From the IMG/VR virus record IMGVR_UViG_3300038701_001381, positions 1-28,979 of that record: 28,979 nt of DNA. The stretch is one strand, 5' to 3'. The stretch's first letter is position 1, and the number at the start of each line of letters is the position of its first letter. This DNA is from a virus. Below the pieces are notes generated by a model. It made no database searches, was not told the origin of the DNA, and was given only the letters and a program-made list of their open reading frames with translations. This document shows, one piece after another, positions 1 through 5,519 of the stretch. A program made the position numbers and the translations under genes.

Positions 1-222
1 AACATTACCCGGTACTACATCACCCGTGAGGGTGGGGAACTGGTGAAGATCATGCCCCCCACACCCACGATGCTAAAGCAAGGCAAGACCGAGAACCGAA
101 GGATCGGGGTTCAAAAGGGTTGGCGGGTCTGTGTGTGCAATGACATCCGGGATGCTGTGGATGACATTAATTATGACTACTATGTCAACGAGGTTGAGAA
201 ATTAGTGATGGGGTTGAAGTGA
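1..222 (+). CDS. C-terminal fragment of an unrecognised phage protein
   Basis: An open frame enters from the left edge and gives 73 residues before a TGA at 220-222. The fragment starts NITRYYITREGG, has a basic middle part (KQGKTENRRIG) and ends in an acidic and tyrosine-rich stretch (NYDYYVNEVEKL). I do not recognise a named domain. It overlaps the nuclease start by one base (TGATG), so it belongs to the same rightward operon of replication and nucleic-acid genes. A role in DNA metabolism is a guess from position only. The start lies outside the window. Confidence 0.75.
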   Translation, partial: NITRYYITREGGELVKIMPPTPTMLKQGKTENRRIGVQKGWRVCVCNDIRDAVDDINYDYYVNEVEKLVMGLK

Positions 223-536
223 TGCTAGAAAAAGACATTGAGAAAAAGGTCTACACCTACGGCAAAACGCTGGGTATCGACCACTACAAGTTCACCTCGC
301 CGGCCAGGGCAGCCGTGCCTGATCGGATGTTTGTTTCAGAAGGTCGAGTGTTCTTCATCGAGTTCAAGCAGACCGGGAAGAAACCCACCCCCGCACAAGA
401 GCGGGAGATTACCCGGCTGCGGAACAACGGTGTACCCGTGTTCGTGGTGGACACGGTTGACGGGGGAAAGTACATCATGGATATGGTTCATATGGGCATG
501 GTGCCAGATCGGATACCGGGGAGTGGGCTGTCGTGA
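222..536 (+). CDS. VRR-NUC domain nuclease
   Basis: A 104-residue single-domain protein of the VRR-NUC branch of the PD-(D/E)XK nucleases, a family common in phage replication modules next to SNF2 helicases. Visible motifs are an N-terminal acidic residue E3 (LEKDIEKKV), PDRM at 33-36 and the core FIEFKQTGKKPTPAQ at 45-59, which supplies the acidic and lysine residues (E47, K49) and the typical PTPAQ turn. The family acts on branched or structured DNA; the substrate here is unknown. I chose ATG at 222, which overlaps the previous stop by one base; an in-frame GTG at 219 would add one residue. The next gene overlaps its stop (GTGA). Confidence 0.9.
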   Translation: MLEKDIEKKVYTYGKTLGIDHYKFTSPARAAVPDRMFVSEGRVFFIEFKQTGKKPTPAQEREITRLRNNGVPVFVVDTVDGGKYIMDMVHMGMVPDRIPGSGLS

Positions 537-1132
537 AGGTCTTGGTTGCATGTGAATACTCGGGGATTGTCAGGGACGCCTTTGCGAAACGTGGGCACTT
601 CGCCATGTCTTGCGACTTATTGGAGACAGAAGTACCCGGGTTCCATTGGCAAGGTGATGTTCGAGAGATATTGAATTTTGGTTGGGATTTGATGATAGCT
701 CATCCCGACTGCACATACTTATGCAGCAGCGGTCTGCATTGGAACAAAAGGGACACCACCAGGCAGGGAAAGACCGAAACAGCGTTGGTTTTTGTTAAGT
801 GTCTGATGGACGCTCCGATAGAAAAAATCGCAATAGAGAACCCTGTTGGTTGCATATCCACCCGTATTCGGAAACCAGATCAATACATCCAACCGTATGA
901 ATATGGACACGACGCTAGTAAAAAGACGGGGTTGTGGTTGAAGAATCTACCGTCGCTAACTCCTACTAAATTGGTTGAACCACGAGTGGTGGACGGTAAA
1001 AAGAGGTGGTCTAATCAAACCGATTCTGGTCAAAATAACCTGCCTCCGTCAGAGGATCGGTGGAGAGAGCGAGCGAGAACATACCAAGGGTGGGCTGATG
1101 CAATGGCGGAACAGTGGGGGTCTACATGTTAA
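533..1132 (+). CDS. DNA cytosine-C5 methyltransferase-like protein
   Basis: A 199-residue protein resembling the short phage DNA cytosine methyltransferases. Motif I-like VACEYSG is at 5-11. HPDCTYL at 57-63 takes the place of the catalytic Pro-Cys loop (usually PPC; here Asp precedes Cys60). IENP is at 101-104, matching the ENV/ENP motif. TGLWLKNLPSL at 132-142 follows. No obvious target-recognition domain is present, so it could be a minimal enzyme or a relative with altered activity. It starts at GTG 533 inside the nuclease stop. The helicase ATG at 1126 overlaps its end by seven bases. Its DNA looks AT-richer than the flanking genes, which hints at separate acquisition. Confidence 0.8.
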   Translation: MKVLVACEYSGIVRDAFAKRGHFAMSCDLLETEVPGFHWQGDVREILNFGWDLMIAHPDCTYLCSSGLHWNKRDTTRQGKTETALVFVKCLMDAPIEKIAIENPVGCISTRIRKPDQYIQPYEYGHDASKKTGLWLKNLPSLTPTKLVEPRVVDGKKRWSNQTDSGQNNLPPSEDRWRERARTYQGWADAMAEQWGSTC

Positions 1133-4100
1133 CCCCTGATCAACTCCACGACTACCAAAAGAAGGCGTCCAATTTCCAGTCCACACATCCTAACTCCGCC
1201 ATCTGGGCCGATATGGGGCTGGGCAAGACCGCGATAACCCTCACCAGCATCGCACATCTGCTGAATGCCGGGTTTTTACGGGGAACCCTCATCGTCGCTC
1301 CGATACGGGTGATCCGTCTCGTGTGGCGCCAGGAGGCCCTGAAGTGGTCACACACCCATCACCTCAAGTTCTCCATGGTTGCCGGCACGAAGGACCAGCG
1401 CACAAGGGCGTTGATGCAAAAGGCCGATGTCTACCTCATCAACTACGAGAACCTGAAATGGCTCGCAGATACTCTGACCACATACTATATCAAGAAGGAC
1501 CGCCAGATCCCCTTCAACGGGGTGGTGTGGGATGAATGTTTTCCTGCTGAAGTTCAAGTGTCCACCTCCGATTCTGATATTAGTATTGCGAATGTCAAGA
1601 TCGGTGATATAGTGGAGACACATCTTGGCCCGCGACGTGTAATAAACACCATGCGCAAGAGGGCTTATTGTCTTGTCACCATCACGCTGACATCTGGAGA
1701 AACTATCAGGTGTACACCCAACCATCCCTTTATGGCGAACGGTGCGTGGTGTGTAGCTGGGGAACTTAACGAAGGAGACCTTCTGCATGAAAGAACACAG
1801 CATTCGACGGTTCGGCCAGGGGTCTTGTCAAATATGTGGAAAGGTGTTCTGGAAAAGACGAGAGTCTCAGTTCACTTGTTCCAAAGGGTGCGCAAGTACG
1901 TGGCGAATGCAGCAACCCGAGATCAAGAGTTCAATCACCAATGGTGGAATAAGAGCCCTGGAGAAACATCGGCAGGAGAATGGTGTTTGGAACAAAGGGA
2001 AGTCTTGGTCCGCAGAGATGCGATTGAGAATGAGCGAGTCTCACAAGAAAAGAGACCATTCCCATTTAACTGGTGGGAATGGTACAGGGGGTTCTTGGGC
2101 AGAAAATCTTCTGAGGACGGTTCTGCCAGAACGATTCGAGCAGGAGTATATCCTACGCATCCCGAAGAAGATCGACGGAATACCAACCCACTACAAATTG
2201 GATTTCGGAGATCCGGTAAACCGGGTGGCAATCGAGGTTCAGGGGCAGTCTCATATCACCCACTTGGGGAAGATTCGAGACAAGAAGAAACGGGACTATT
2301 TGAACAGCCAAGGGTGGTCAGTGTTGTACATAACCAATACCCAGGTGGCGTTGATGTTTGGAATCTCCACGTAGAAGAAGCCGAGACGTACTTCGCAAAT
2401 GGCATACTTGTTCACAATTGCTCAAAAATGAAGAACAGCACCACGAAAAGGGTGTCGGCCTTCCGCAAGATTCTCCCTTTCTTCGACTGGACCACCGGAC
2501 TCACCGGCACCCCGGCTGCCAACGGTTACCGGGATCTCCACGGTCAATACCTGGTCCTGGACAAAGGGGTGCGTCTGGGCACCAGTAAGACCGCGTTCAC
2601 GGAGCGATTCTATTACAAGAAGTCAGCCTACAAGCTGGAGGCATTCCCGGATACCGAGGAGACCATCAAATCCCTGATCGGGGATATCACGATGCAGATG
2701 TCAGCGGAGGACTACAATCCTCTCCCGGACCTCATCATGAACGATATCCGGGTGGATCTCCCACCACAGATGCGTCGGAAATATGAGGATCTGGAAAAGG
2801 ACTTCTTCTTCCAACTCGACAACGGGACCGATGTGGAGGTGTTCAACAAGGCATCCTTGACCAATAAATGCATAGCTGAAGGTACTGAGGTTTTAACCAC
2901 TGATGGGTGGATACCTATTGAGCAGTATGATGGCCAAATGGTTTGGGATGGTGAGGAATGGGTAAACACCTCCGGTTTATCTTTCAATGGTTATAAATAT
3001 ACTATAAACTGTCACGATGTTCTTATGACTCCAGATCATAAGGTTCTCACGACAGACGGTTGGAAAGAGGCGAGGGATATTACCGATGGCGAATCCCGCG
3101 AAAGATATGACAGATCAGCAGTTCGATTACCTGACGGTTATTCGGAGAGCTGGGAGCAGAAAGAGGAAGGACGGTTCATCCCTGGCATTATGGGAAGTTC
3201 TCTGCGTTTGCGGGAACAAGAAGGTGATGATTGGTCAGAATCTTCGCAGGAACACCAATCGTCTAAAATCATGTGGGTGCAAACACTCGGAAGCAATAAT
3301 AAAGGGTCGGAAGGAGAAAGGTGTCTCGCACCACAATATGACGGGCACGCGTCCTTATGTTATATGGATCAACATGAAGTCCCGATGCAACAACCCATCA
3401 GACAAAGACTACCCGAGCTATGGGGGAAGGGGTATCACTGTATGCGAAAGGTGGTTAGGGTCATTTGCCGCTTTTTGGGAGGACATGTGCAATGGGTATC
3501 AGGATCACCTGACCATAGAGAGAATGGACAATTCTGCGGGGTACTATCCGGGGAATTGCAGATGGGGAACGATGACTCGTCAAGCGAACAATCGAAGATC
3601 ATCGGTCTACATCGACACCCCGATTGGTCGAATAACCGTAGCTCAAGCAGCAAGAAGGTACGGTCTAAAACCAATAACAATATACAAAAGGTTAGAGAGA
3701 GGGGCGTCAGATACAGAGGCGATAGCACCCGTAGGGTCTACGACATAGTAAACGCTGGTCCCAGACACAGGTACACTGTTAGAGGGACAGACGGTAAACC
3801 ACTGATTGTGCATAATTGCCTTCAGTTCAGCAACGGATTTGTCTACCCCATACCCGGCATCCCGAAGTGGGAACACATTCACGATCTGAAACTGGACGCC
3901 TTGGAGGACATCATCGAGGAGGCGGGCGGGTCCCCGATCCTTTGTGCGTATCAGTACCGGGCAGACGCGGAACGGATCATGGAGCGGTTCAAGAAACTCC
4001 GCCCGATCAACTTGACTGAGTGCAAATCTGAGGCGTCATTGAACAACGCGATGGCCCGGTGGAAGAACGACGACTGTCAACTGATGATAGGGCATCCGGC

Positions 4101-4365
4101 AAGCATGGGCCATGGTGTGGACGGATTGCAGGACAACGGTCACATCCTCGTCTGGTTCGGCCTGAACTGGTCACTGGACCTCTATCTGCAGTTCAATGCC
4201 CGGATACGTAGGCAGGGGCAGGGTGCCCCGGTAATCTGCCATCGGATATTGGTGGAGGACACCCTGGACCAAGCACAGGCATTGGCTCTGGGTGATAAGG
4301 AGGAGAGTCAGACATCTCTCCGCAATGCAATCAAGGCGTATCGTCAAATGAAGGAGAACGGGTGA
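1126..4365 (+). CDS. SNF2/DEAD-type phage helicase interrupted by two inteins
   Basis: A 1079-residue precursor. The extein parts are 1-137, 432-581 and 898-1079, which join into about 469 residues, a usual size for phage SNF2-like helicases. Seen in order: Walker A DMGLGKT at 29-35; Walker B VVWDE at 133-137, interrupted straight after the Glu by intein 1; GLTGTP at 458-463; an extein segment ending LTNK at 581, then intein 2; and the C-terminal helicase lobe with HPASMGHGVDGLQ and the motif VI-like QFNARIRRQGQG. Without the inteins the reading is WDE-CSKMKN and LTNK-CLQFSNG, both normal for the family. ATG 1126 is preferred over the in-frame GTG 1114. Function requires removal of intein 1, because it splits the ATPase motif. 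The family remodels or unwinds DNA; its partner here may be the VRR-NUC nuclease. Confidence 0.93.
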   Translation: MLTPDQLHDYQKKASNFQSTHPNSAIWADMGLGKTAITLTSIAHLLNAGFLRGTLIVAPIRVIRLVWRQEALKWSHTHHLKFSMVAGTKDQRTRALMQKADVYLINYENLKWLADTLTTYYIKKDRQIPFNGVVWDECFPAEVQVSTSDSDISIANVKIGDIVETHLGPRRVINTMRKRAYCLVTITLTSGETIRCTPNHPFMANGAWCVAGELNEGDLLHERTQHSTVRPGVLSNMWKGVLEKTRVSVHLFQRVRKYVANAATRDQEFNHQWWNKSPGETSAGEWCLEQREVLVRRDAIENERVSQEKRPFPFNWWEWYRGFLGRKSSEDGSARTIRAGVYPTHPEEDRRNTNPLQIGFRRSGKPGGNRGSGAVSYHPLGEDSRQEETGLFEQPRVVSVVHNQYPGGVDVWNLHVEEAETYFANGILVHNCSKMKNSTTKRVSAFRKILPFFDWTTGLTGTPAANGYRDLHGQYLVLDKGVRLGTSKTAFTERFYYKKSAYKLEAFPDTEETIKSLIGDITMQMSAEDYNPLPDLIMNDIRVDLPPQMRRKYEDLEKDFFFQLDNGTDVEVFNKASLTNKCIAEGTEVLTTDGWIPIEQYDGQMVWDGEEWVNTSGLSFNGYKYTINCHDVLMTPDHKVLTTDGWKEARDITDGESRERYDRSAVRLPDGYSESWEQKEEGRFIPGIMGSSLRLREQEGDDWSESSQEHQSSKIMWVQTLGSNNKGSEGERCLAPQYDGHASLCYMDQHEVPMQQPIRQRLPELWGKGYHCMRKVVRVICRFLGGHVQWVSGSPDHRENGQFCGVLSGELQMGNDDSSSEQSKIIGLHRHPDWSNNRSSSSKKVRSKTNNNIQKVRERGVRYRGDSTRRVYDIVNAGPRHRYTVRGTDGKPLIVHNCLQFSNGFVYPIPGIPKWEHIHDLKLDALEDIIEEAGGSPILCAYQYRADAERIMERFKKLRPINLTECKSEASLNNAMARWKNDDCQLMIGHPASMGHGVDGLQDNGHILVWFGLNWSLDLYLQFNARIRRQGQGAPVICHRILVEDTLDQAQALALGDKEESQTSLRNAIKAYRQMKENG
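1772..1777 (+). promoter_or_regulatory. Shine-Dalgarno sequence of nested endonuclease gene 1
   Basis: AAGGAG lies 9 bases before the ATG at 1787. In the intein frame the same bases encode the Glu-Gly-Asp of LNEGDLL, a conserved type of turn after block B. The site can therefore serve translation of the nested gene without disturbing the intein. Confidence 0.75.
1787..2374 (+). CDS. Vsr-like (EDxHD) homing endonuclease nested in intein 1, +1 frame
   Basis: A 195-residue protein fully inside intein 1 but read one base forward of the helicase frame. It has a zinc finger with Cys14, Cys17, Cys31 and Cys35 (CQIC..CSKGC), a NUMOD3-like DNA-binding motif NKGKSWSAEMRLRMSESHKK at 69-88, and a C-terminal Vsr-like nuclease with E106, D139 (YKLDF), H156 (EVQGQSH), D165 or D170 (RDKKKRD) and the core strand GWSVLYIT. 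This domain order is typical of mobile endonucleases, including the EDxHD class linked to split phage inteins. It would cut intein-less helicase genes near the insertion site. It starts at ATG 1787 with a good SD and stops at TAG inside the bases that encode block F. It is intact. Expression by internal initiation is inferred. Confidence 0.88.
   Translation: MKEHSIRRFGQGSCQICGKVFWKRRESQFTCSKGCASTWRMQQPEIKSSITNGGIRALEKHRQENGVWNKGKSWSAEMRLRMSESHKKRDHSHLTGGNGTGGSWAENLLRTVLPERFEQEYILRIPKKIDGIPTHYKLDFGDPVNRVAIEVQGQSHITHLGKIRDKKKRDYLNSQGWSVLYITNTQVALMFGIST
3072..3076 (+). promoter_or_regulatory. Shine-Dalgarno-like sequence of nested endonuclease gene 2
   Basis: GAGGG lies 9 bases before the ATG at 3086, with another purine run AAAGAGG just upstream. 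In the intein frame these bases encode WKEARD. The spacing is the same as for the first nested gene. Confidence 0.6.
3086..3748 (+). CDS. HNH-like homing endonuclease nested in intein 2, +1 frame
   Basis: A 220-residue protein fully inside intein 2 and shifted +1 to it. It has a zinc-ribbon-like pair CVCGN (Cys40, Cys42) and SCGC (Cys63, Cys65), then the phage HNH-family signature TRPYVIWINMKSRCNNP, YGGRGITVCERW, IERMDN at 144-149 and NCRW at 157-160 with QANNR at 166-170, and a C-terminal helix-turn-helix of NUMOD1 type, GRITVAQAARRYGL..IYKRL at about 181-203. This domain order is common in phage-borne mobile endonucleases. It starts at ATG 3086 and stops at TAG 3746-3748 within the bases that encode VYDIV of intein block F. 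It is intact and unrelated in family to the first nested enzyme. Target preference for the empty helicase site is inferred. Confidence 0.88.
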   Translation: MANPAKDMTDQQFDYLTVIRRAGSRKRKDGSSLALWEVLCVCGNKKVMIGQNLRRNTNRLKSCGCKHSEAIIKGRKEKGVSHHNMTGTRPYVIWINMKSRCNNPSDKDYPSYGGRGITVCERWLGSFAAFWEDMCNGYQDHLTIERMDNSAGYYPGNCRWGTMTRQANNRRSSVYIDTPIGRITVAQAARRYGLKPITIYKRLERGASDTEAIAPVGSTT

Positions 4366-4499
4366 AACTCCTCATCGGCATCCTGCTGGTGCTGGTTACC
4401 ACAACGGTTAACCGGGACCCTGTTGTACGAGACCCCGGGGAGCAGAAGCCACCCGGTGTCTGTCAGTACTGTGTGATCGTGAAATGGGTTACCGATTAG
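4362..4499 (+). CDS. Small signal-peptide-like protein, 45 residues
   Basis: It starts at GTG 4362, whose last two bases form part of the helicase stop (GTGA). The product has a positively charged start and one hydrophobic segment, MKLLIGILLVLVTTT, followed by a short polar tail with the pair CQYC. It could be a secreted or inner-membrane peptide; there is no lipobox. Function unknown. It is the last rightward gene; its TAG is 11 bases from the stop of the converging late operon, leaving no room for a separate terminator. Confidence 0.55.
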   Translation: MKLLIGILLVLVTTTVNRDPVVRDPGEQKPPGVCQYCVIVKWVTD

Positions 4500-4510
4500 C
4501 GGAAGGGTCC

Positions 4511-4816
4511 TCACCTTGGCGACGGTCCCCCGTTCCTGAATGTGTACCAGATAATGCCTGCCGCTGCGATCACACCGGCTGCCCACTTCACGAACTTCCC
4601 GATGGTGGAGAAGAATGTCACCCCTTTGACCACGGTGTCCCATGCCGCCAGCATGTCTCGGGTGTTGCAATGGATCTCTTTTACCATTTTGGTGTTGCTA
4701 TCCACTGCATCCTTCAGGGTTTCTTGAACTTTCTGTTCGTGCTCTTGGTGCAGAAGGAACTCGCTATGAAATTTTGATAGTTCTTCGTCAGACCATCGGC
4801 GATTTTCGTCAGTCAC
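4511..4816 (-). CDS. Coiled-coil, C-terminally membrane-anchored lysis-cassette protein
   Basis: A 101-residue protein. The N-terminal two thirds (about 7-65) are charged and helical, probably coiled coil. A single hydrophobic segment near the end (FVKWAAGVIAAAGIIWYTF) is followed by a short tail. I chose GTG at 4816, which shares one base with the TAG of the upstream peptidase gene, so the start MTDENRRW is coupled to it. It is the promoter-distal gene of the late operon, next to the holin and endolysin. A second holin, an antiholin or a spanin-like partner are all possible; no family is recognised with certainty. Confidence 0.65.
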   Translation of the reverse strand: MTDENRRWSDEELSKFHSEFLLHQEHEQKVQETLKDAVDSNTKMVKEIHCNTRDMLAAWDTVVKGVTFFSTIGKFVKWAAGVIAAAGIIWYTFRNGGPSPR

Positions 4817-5115
4817 TACAATTCCCCAAGAGAGTAATGGTTTCCATCCTTGCGTTTGAACCGGCCACCCCACGATCCGCCGATAGATTCCCAGTATTCA
4901 CCGAGCGGAAGGTGGTCCTCTGTCTCAGTAAGATACTGACCGTCCTTGAATAGGTTCAGATCGATGGCCAGCCGCTGGTAGTGGAACGATCCGTTAATGT
5001 GGCCGGAGGTAGCATAGGCGTCCCCGAAAGTCACCTCGTACCCAAGCACGGTCGCGTGGTCAATAAGTCGAGCAACCATCCTGGCGAATTTAGATTGTCT
5101 TTCTCGCAGTGTCAT
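4816..5115 (-). CDS. M15-family peptidase, probable endolysin
   Basis: A 99-residue single-domain protein resembling phage L-Ala-D-Glu type peptidases of the M15 (VanY-like) family, which cut peptidoglycan stem peptides at lysis. Zinc-ligand candidates are H45 and D52 in SFHYQRLAIDLN and H93 in DGNHYS, with the family hallmarks LGYEVTFGDAY at 24-34 and GEYWESIGGSWGGRF at 72-86. It lies at the short end for the family but has both ligand motifs. The ATG overlaps the holin stop by four bases (ATGA). It has no signal peptide, so it fits holin-dependent export. Confidence 0.9.
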   Translation of the reverse strand: MTLRERQSKFARMVARLIDHATVLGYEVTFGDAYATSGHINGSFHYQRLAIDLNLFKDGQYLTETEDHLPLGEYWESIGGSWGGRFKRKDGNHYSLGEL

Positions 5116-5519
5116 GACTTCCCTCCCAGGCCCACCCCTAAATTTTTCAAAGCTCGTTCACCGTACCAAAAACCCATACTGATCAGATTGAGTTGCCAGA
5201 GCATAGTCATAGTGTCGGGGTCAGTACCACTAGGTCCCTGCACAAAACCGTACAGAAAGAACCCTGCCAGAGTGTACGTGATTACAGGTCTGACCGAACC
5301 GCGCAATATCTGGATGATCGGGTGCACCTGATCCCCACGACCCTCGTATGCGACGATAAAGTCTCTGAAAGACTGGTCCTGTTTAAGATCAATATTCGCC
5401 AACTCATTCGCCAACTCGATCTTGGCTCTTGCCGCAGTCTCCGGGTCTGGCCAAATCTTGTCTATAACTTTCTCCCCCACCCCGACAAGAGGTGCAAGGA
5501 GCGCCATTGGGAAAGCCAT
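5112..5519 (-). CDS. GTA-type 3TM holin family protein
   Basis: A 135-residue protein matching the GTA_holin_3TM family. Typical features are VIDKIWPDPETAARAKIEL at 18-36, FRDFIVAYEG at 51-60 and ILRGSVRPVITY at 71-82, followed by hydrophobic segments (TLAGFFLYGFV; LWQLNLISMGFWYG). It should form inner-membrane lesions that release the adjacent peptidase. I chose ATG 5519 because it forms TAATG with the upstream stop and has GGAGG at a suitable distance. A longer start at 5534 would lie within the fibre gene. Confidence 0.88.
   Translation of the reverse strand: MAFPMALLAPLVGVGEKVIDKIWPDPETAARAKIELANELANIDLKQDQSFRDFIVAYEGRGDQVHPIIQILRGSVRPVITYTLAGFFLYGFVQGPSGTDPDTMTMLWQLNLISMGFWYGERALKNLGVGLGGKS

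Follow-up and report, generated by a model that had tools for sequence, protein, structure and literature searches.

Endonuclease genes nested out of frame within two inteins of a phage helicase gene

We found that a phage helicase gene contains two inteins, each enclosing an endonuclease gene that is read in the +1 frame relative to the host gene, and we consider it very probable that these are mobile inteins in which the homing endonuclease is a separate gene, nested out of frame at the usual insertion site. In current descriptions, an intein either fuses a splicing domain to an endonuclease domain read in the same frame or, in the mini and split forms, lacks the endonuclease. The stretch of DNA that was analyzed (the window) spans the 28,979 bases of an IMG/VR virus record; the host gene, its inteins and the nested genes are located as follows (a slash in a motif marks the intein site).

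1114 to 4365, + strand: ORF of a phage SNF2-type DNA helicase (phrog_62), frame 1, with two in-frame inteins; intein-free homologues are L012 (Phage DSL-LC05) and L002
1537 to 2418, + strand: intein 1, 294 aa, between D-E and C in helicase motif II; site empty in L002
1787 to 2374, + strand: nested endonuclease gene 1, frame 2 (+1 to host), ATG 1787, 195 aa, with a zinc-finger-like N-terminus and a predicted Vsr/EDxHD-fold nuclease
2869 to 3816, + strand: intein 2, 316 aa, between K and C in NK/CLQF; site empty in L002, L012 and L009
3086 to 3748, + strand: nested HNH endonuclease gene 2, frame 2 (+1 to host), ATG 3086, 220 aa

The helicase ORF matches phrog_62 along 1114-4365 (E = 2.8e-114). 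Intein 1 matches Pfam Intein_splicing PF14890 (E = 3.9e-15) as well as TIGR01445 and TIGR01443 (above cut-off), and its residues 5-85 align to residues 8-89 of gp41-1 (E = 4.4e-6), while intein 2 matches the N and C intein profiles. Both have the splicing residues C...HN/C (Cys at position 1, terminal His-Asn and +1 Cys). Neither intein is present in L002 or L012, and the junction at site 1 of L002, which is ~82% identical in DNA to the window and has Ile in place of the +1 Cys, is exact to the codon. Thus, by their N- and C-terminal splicing regions, terminal residues and empty homologous sites, 1537-2418 and 2869-3816 are inteins as judged from sequence, with splicing itself predicted, and the empty sites in the close relative L002 point to a recent gain or loss of the kind that is typical of homing elements. 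We considered three other kinds of insertion and rejected each: a group I or group II intron, given that an Rfam search of window 1-5500 found no intron or other RNA family up to E 0.1; a split intein or fractured gene, given a host frame that is unbroken from 1114 to 4365; and a canonical intein with an in-frame endonuclease, given that both nested genes are +1 to the host frame. Just 5′ of the helicase, at 219-1132, lie a phrog_93 endonuclease (219-536) and then a DNA methyltransferase (533-1132); the structural genes of the window are on the opposite strand from the helicase.

The catalytic domain of gene 1, which matches DUF559 (E = 1e-5), is predicted to adopt a Vsr-like nuclease fold, its model aligning to 3hrl (Z 9.1, 2.2 A, 74 aligned), to the EDxHD homing endonuclease I-Bth0305I (3r3p; Z 8.8, 2.6 A, 77 aligned) and to Vsr (1cw0; Z 8.3); in the model the nuclease fold is complete to about residue 190. 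This predicted fold is what gene 1 has in common with I-Bth0305I and Vsr, but I-Bth0305I is by its PDB name a mobile intron protein, whereas gene 1 is nested in an intein. Residues D139, E150 and H156 are invariant in A1, and Q152 stands for the D of L003, L004 and L010, such that E-x-Q (IEVQGQSH; EVQG) is found in gene 1 and in the two relatives closest to it, in contrast to the E-x-D-G of the other relatives of gene 1. Judging from this substitution, nuclease activity is not assured in the EVQG clade to which gene 1 belongs. For gene 2, residues 3-213 match phrog_374 (E = 1.6e-58); no Pfam model matched at E 0.1 or better, and querying PDB sequences with the alignment of gene 2 gave no match. 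Free-standing relatives of gene 2 exist (e.g., L022 and L023).

The original prediction had given the coordinates of both genes exactly (gene 1 from ATG 1787 to TAG 2372-2374, gene 2 from ATG 3086 to TAG 3746-3748, both +1) and had rightly placed their starts in intein residues 84 (gene 1) and 73 (gene 2). Its proposal that the genes enter at the usual endonuclease site agreed with the alignment of gp41-1 to intein 1 and with an SF1-type helicase from an archaeal MAG (L215, 1319-4000), which has an in-frame EDxHD intein at VDE/C and was the single in-frame member recovered by the EDxHD profile. In L215, the EDxHD domain follows closely on the 'GD' motif that L215 shares with intein 1, and its end lies ahead of the strand preceding VYDI. 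Based on this comparison, the entry in the window is canonical. The canonical exit is near intein residue 258, where the nuclease-only segment of gene 1 ends; gene 1 runs 21 codons further, and thus its stop does not mark the exit, contrary to what had been proposed. Since the endonuclease domains of inteins occupy one conserved site (PMC6801210) and engineered inteins have had this domain swapped for a flexible linker (PMC7090010), a long filler at this site is plausible. The nested genes sit at the same position as the endonuclease domains of canonical inteins and of L215, whose nuclease family (EDxHD) is also that of gene 1. In contrast to those domains, which are part of the intein protein, the nested nuclease is encoded by its own gene in a different frame, and the 3′ end of that gene overlaps the codons for the C-terminal strands of the intein.

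The arrangement recurs well beyond the window. The set comprises 80 distinct nested endonucleases (58 of the EDxHD type, all +1; 16 HNH +1; 6 HNH +2) from IMG/VR, cultured phages and 13 bacterial or archaeal genome contigs; these were found with profiles built from nested members, such that the set is no measure of the frequency of nesting among all inteins. Relatives were found with alignment queries, while the single sequences P0002 and P0003 yielded few or none. Intein N- and C-terminal splicing motifs in the host frame flank every nested case, and 55 of the 58 EDxHD-type inteins are inserted exactly at DE/C. Cultured carriers are the Vibrio phages CP-T1, 1.088.O and 159E43-1b, Corynebacterium phi673, Pseudomonas MR14, Caulobacter GB2A and Salmonella FSL SP-101. 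We examined published phage records that contain nested cases: in none of them is an endonuclease annotated within the host gene (helicase or DNA polymerase), and some label this gene hypothetical.

Across the 80 nested cores, we observed no stop codon in the host frame, compared to 649 expected when synonymous nuclease codons were resampled; the third frame holds 972. In the window, 8.4 host-frame stops were expected for gene 1 and 11.7 for gene 2 (0 observed), with a probability of an open frame of 0.0003 for gene 1 and no open frame among 4000 resamplings for gene 2. A natural control is provided by L005a, in which the intein halves are in two different frames, an intact HNH gene occupies the third and no frame is open throughout; here 15 stops fall in the frame used by the C-terminal half, compared to 14.5 expected. 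We infer from this difference that the host frame is free of stops in the nested cores because it is translated through. Most cases are on metagenomic contigs, as might be expected if ordinary in-frame endonuclease inteins had acquired frameshifts in assembly or sequencing, but an indel would break the host frame, which is open through the insert in 80 of 80 cases, including cultured and independently sequenced phages; the sequences of these phages refute this explanation, which we find hardly credible. Thus, we conclude that the nested out-of-frame architecture is real and widespread.

The constraint on the two frames could be read from intein 1, which is 882 nt long in the window, L001 and L009 and aligns without gaps (the CP-T1 and 1.088.O pair has gaps and was left out of this position profile). 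Among these three, the first 250 nt differ mostly at host codon position 3; from nt 251, exactly at the start of gene 1, most differences are at host position 1, which is gene 1 position 3, and from about nt 781-840, near the end of gene 1, host position 3 again predominates. Between the window and L001, the differences at host positions 1, 2 and 3 number 31, 26 and 61 in the N-intein, 107, 45 and 32 in the endonuclease-only segment, and 2, 3 and 12 in the C-only segment. Moreover, in the +2-frame pair L005b and L007, the differences move to host position 2, as the model requires. Over the part of intein 1 that holds gene 1, identity in steps of 60 nt ranges from 10-55% in the host frame, compared to 37-89% in the nested frame.

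These patterns bear on two further explanations. If the host-frame product over the nested gene were the functional domain and the +1 ORF a passenger, one would expect the host frame to be open in every case, as it is. However, it is the nested frame that is the better conserved and that encodes recognizable nucleases, and host-frame residues 85-256 have no confident structure when modeled (pLDDT mostly near 22; mean pLDDT 34.5, 3 sequences), and we regard a host-frame domain as very improbable. The nested genes might instead be truncated remnants, with the block F stops as early stops in decaying genes, since the same frame continues in the closest relatives, by 12 codons past the stop of gene 1 and also past that of gene 2. 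We think decay distinctly improbable: the differences between the window and L001 are concentrated at the third codon positions of gene 1 (107 of 174 sites, compared to 45 of 175 and 32 of 175), and the modeled fold lies entirely upstream of the lost tail.

The 3′ ends of the nested genes, where they run into the C-terminal part of the intein, comprise the following features.

2311 to 2374, + strand: apparently dual-coded stretch encoding residues 175-195 of the gene 1 endonuclease and intein residues 259-280; fewest differences among relatives
2372 to 2374, + strand: TAG stop of gene 1 in block F, across GTA-GAA (V-E of VWNLHVE), 44 nt before the intein end
3746 to 3748, + strand: TAG stop of gene 2 in block F, across ATA-GTA (I-V of VYDIV), 68 nt before the intein end

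Among the intein 1 relatives, differences per site amount to 0.20-0.28 at 2311-2374, compared to 0.35-0.38 in the endonuclease-only segment and 0.46-0.48 in the N-intein. In the models, the same stretch encodes the last nuclease strand and helix (residues 178-190) and, in the host frame, the intein C-terminal strands (259-266 and 272-279). Because it has the fewest differences and encodes structural elements in both frames, we read the last ~20 codons of gene 1 as dual-coded, on the evidence of alignment and models together. Dual coding at the end of gene 2 covers a short stretch, in which constraint on both frames was not detected. Thus, the proposal that the last endonuclease codons are dual-coded holds for gene 1, and to a greater extent than had been proposed, but was not borne out for gene 2.

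Both stops lie within block F codons, as predicted. The stronger claim, that they occupy the same structural place, holds for the block but not for the alignment column, since their distances to the intein end are 44 nt for gene 1 and 68 nt for gene 2. Relatives that continue past these positions, which the original prediction had named as its refutation, do exist: L001 and L009, the closest to gene 1, run 12 codons beyond it, to a stop 8 nt before the intein end, and L001, the closest to gene 2, runs beyond gene 2. For gene 1, reading this as a damaging truncation does not hold; from the alignment and the model, the block F stop is a 12-codon shortening in which the lost tail lies outside the nuclease fold and the enzyme would not be broken. 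The stop position of gene 2 is as expected by chance.

In the EDxHD family the position of the stop shows a clear pattern. The 58 stop sites are distributed among block G (35), the block F zone (10), the interval between them (7) and positions beyond the intein (6), and the block G stop is in almost all cases a TAG formed from NTA + GTN inside 'LVHN'. Where the endonuclease frame is still open, the codon before the Val of block G is NTA in 32 of 38 cases, compared to 4.9 expected from their own codon usage, whereas where it has already stopped the count is 6 of 32 (6.4 expected). When averaged in 60% identity clusters, the corresponding values are 11.5 of 17 (1.7 expected) and 3.5 of 16 (3.4 expected). 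Overall, a stop in the endonuclease frame occurs within the last 28 intein codons in 52 of 58 cases, compared to 27.7 expected. Since the NTA excess is found only where the endonuclease is still open, the stop inside the intein is selected through synonymous codons in this family, and because the codon change is synonymous it costs the intein nothing. The block G codon of window intein 1 is CTT rather than NTA. For the HNH group, no selection for a block F stop was detected: among the 16 HNH genes in the +1 frame, 15 have their stop in the block F zone, compared to 13.3 expected by synonymous choice. Given these proportions (15 of 16 and, for EDxHD, 10 of 58), it is not remarkable that both window stops are in block F. 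We rejected a shared stop site as a conserved feature, as stops range from block F to beyond the intein end. The nested endonuclease of L010 (2998-3687) stops 58 nt beyond the intein end, in the C-extein, and five other nested genes also end beyond the intein (L053, L055, L207, L210 and L220).

We propose that a ribosome reading the helicase would cross the nested gene in the host frame, producing N-extein, IntN, filler, IntC and C-extein, with a long filler that has no fold or function of its own; the HINT halves would then join the helicase and the filler would be discarded. Other ribosomes would initiate inside the intein, at ATG 1787 and ATG 3086, using Shine-Dalgarno-like sites in intein codons, and release a free endonuclease, which would cut an intein-free helicase gene and so allow the element to be copied in. 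Selection would both keep the host frame free of stops and supply the endonuclease stop in the last codons of the intein, with the EDxHD stop arising by synonymous choice, usually as NTA-GTN in 'LVHN', and that of window gene 1 as GTA-GAA in block F. The putative initiation sites in the window are as follows.

1767 to 1786, + strand: Shine-Dalgarno-like AAGGAGA 5′ of ATG 1787, within intein E-G-D codons; anti-SD duplex -8.8 kcal/mol
3066 to 3085, + strand: Shine-Dalgarno-like GAGGGA 5′ of ATG 3086; duplex -8.1 / -7.7 kcal/mol

Initiation is the least certain step of this mechanism. Shine-Dalgarno-like sites are strong at both window starts and slightly above control over the set (median duplex -3.3 compared to -2.7 kcal/mol in the control, P = 0.013, with the choice of start uncertain). 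The intein 'GD' codons were rejected as a general source of such sites; they provide one in gene 1, L001 and L009, but not set-wide. A nuclease-frame stop is found inside the intein upstream of the core in 78 of 80 cases, and thus entry to the nuclease frame must occur within the intein. Such entry could also come about by programmed frameshifting inside the intein, which would make an intein-endonuclease fusion, ended by the block F stop, with no internal initiation. Consistent with a frameshift, 13 of the 80 nested ORFs have no ATG start, one of these (L055) has no ATG, GTG or TTG, and the Shine-Dalgarno signal over the set is weak. However, in L001, which among full-length relatives is the closest, both nested ORFs start with an ATG directly after an in-frame stop, which the shift would have to follow; furthermore, both window starts have strong Shine-Dalgarno-like sites, and both +1 and +2 arrangements occur. 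We therefore consider frameshifting unlikely and favor internal initiation. In L068, L070, L077, L079, L089 and L118, which have DE/CNAYK-like sites, the nested ORF lacks an ATG and the nearest start is a TTG at intein residue 85; initiation in this subgroup needs another explanation.

Dassa et al. reportedly described, in 2009, fractured genes, in which the two halves of a split intein flank a free-standing endonuclease gene. The likeness is that an endonuclease with its own start and stop lies between IntN and IntC, and gp41-1, which among solved inteins is the nearest, is itself split; the difference is that the host frame in the window is unbroken and splicing would be in cis. One DNA polymerase gene, L005 (1973-4100), has two HNH inteins: in intein a, the halves are in different frames around an intact HNH gene, with IntN, nuclease and IntC in three frames, so that it looks like a fractured, split-intein-like form of the same arrangement, while in intein b the host frame is uninterrupted and the nested HNH gene is read in the +2 frame. 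Together, these two inteins resemble the two stages of a single path within one gene. In E. coli phage ST4 (L021, 687-4109), the annotation divides DNA polymerase I into two pieces that flank a free-standing HNH gene; the junctions, when inspected, had no obvious intein motifs. The closest published case is the ShiLan element, an out-of-frame HNH gene without an intein, for which the authors propose leaderless initiation (PMC11855218; also PMC12613952). In ShiLan, as in the window, the endonuclease gene is in another frame, the host frame is open and a disjunct distribution suggests homing, but the ShiLan insertion has no splicing domains and is thought to be retained in the protein, whereas the window genes are at the endonuclease site of a recognizable intein and their filler would be removable by splicing. 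Our literature search found no description of an out-of-frame endonuclease within an intein; a preprint outside that search (Gosselin et al. 2025, 'Non-Canonical Architecture', 10.1101/2025.01.02.630785) might contain one.

In a broader sense, out-of-frame nested endonucleases may constitute a distinct, old and widespread class of mobile inteins, one that is almost exclusive in one EDxHD lineage in helicase motif II, whose stop is kept by synonymous-codon selection in the intein C-terminal motif, and which is intermediate to split inteins with free-standing endonucleases by a single host-frame stop; we would put the case for this general view as evenly balanced. Because annotation missed the nested gene in every published record that we examined, such inteins would be counted as endonuclease-free with a long unexplained linker, and intein mobility is probably underestimated. 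The nested arrangement would offer a concrete path to split inteins, and each nested pair is a case of overlapping genes in which the constraint on each frame is directly readable. Finally, our results suggest that a spliced-out region of a protein may host a second gene, provided that the host frame is without stops.
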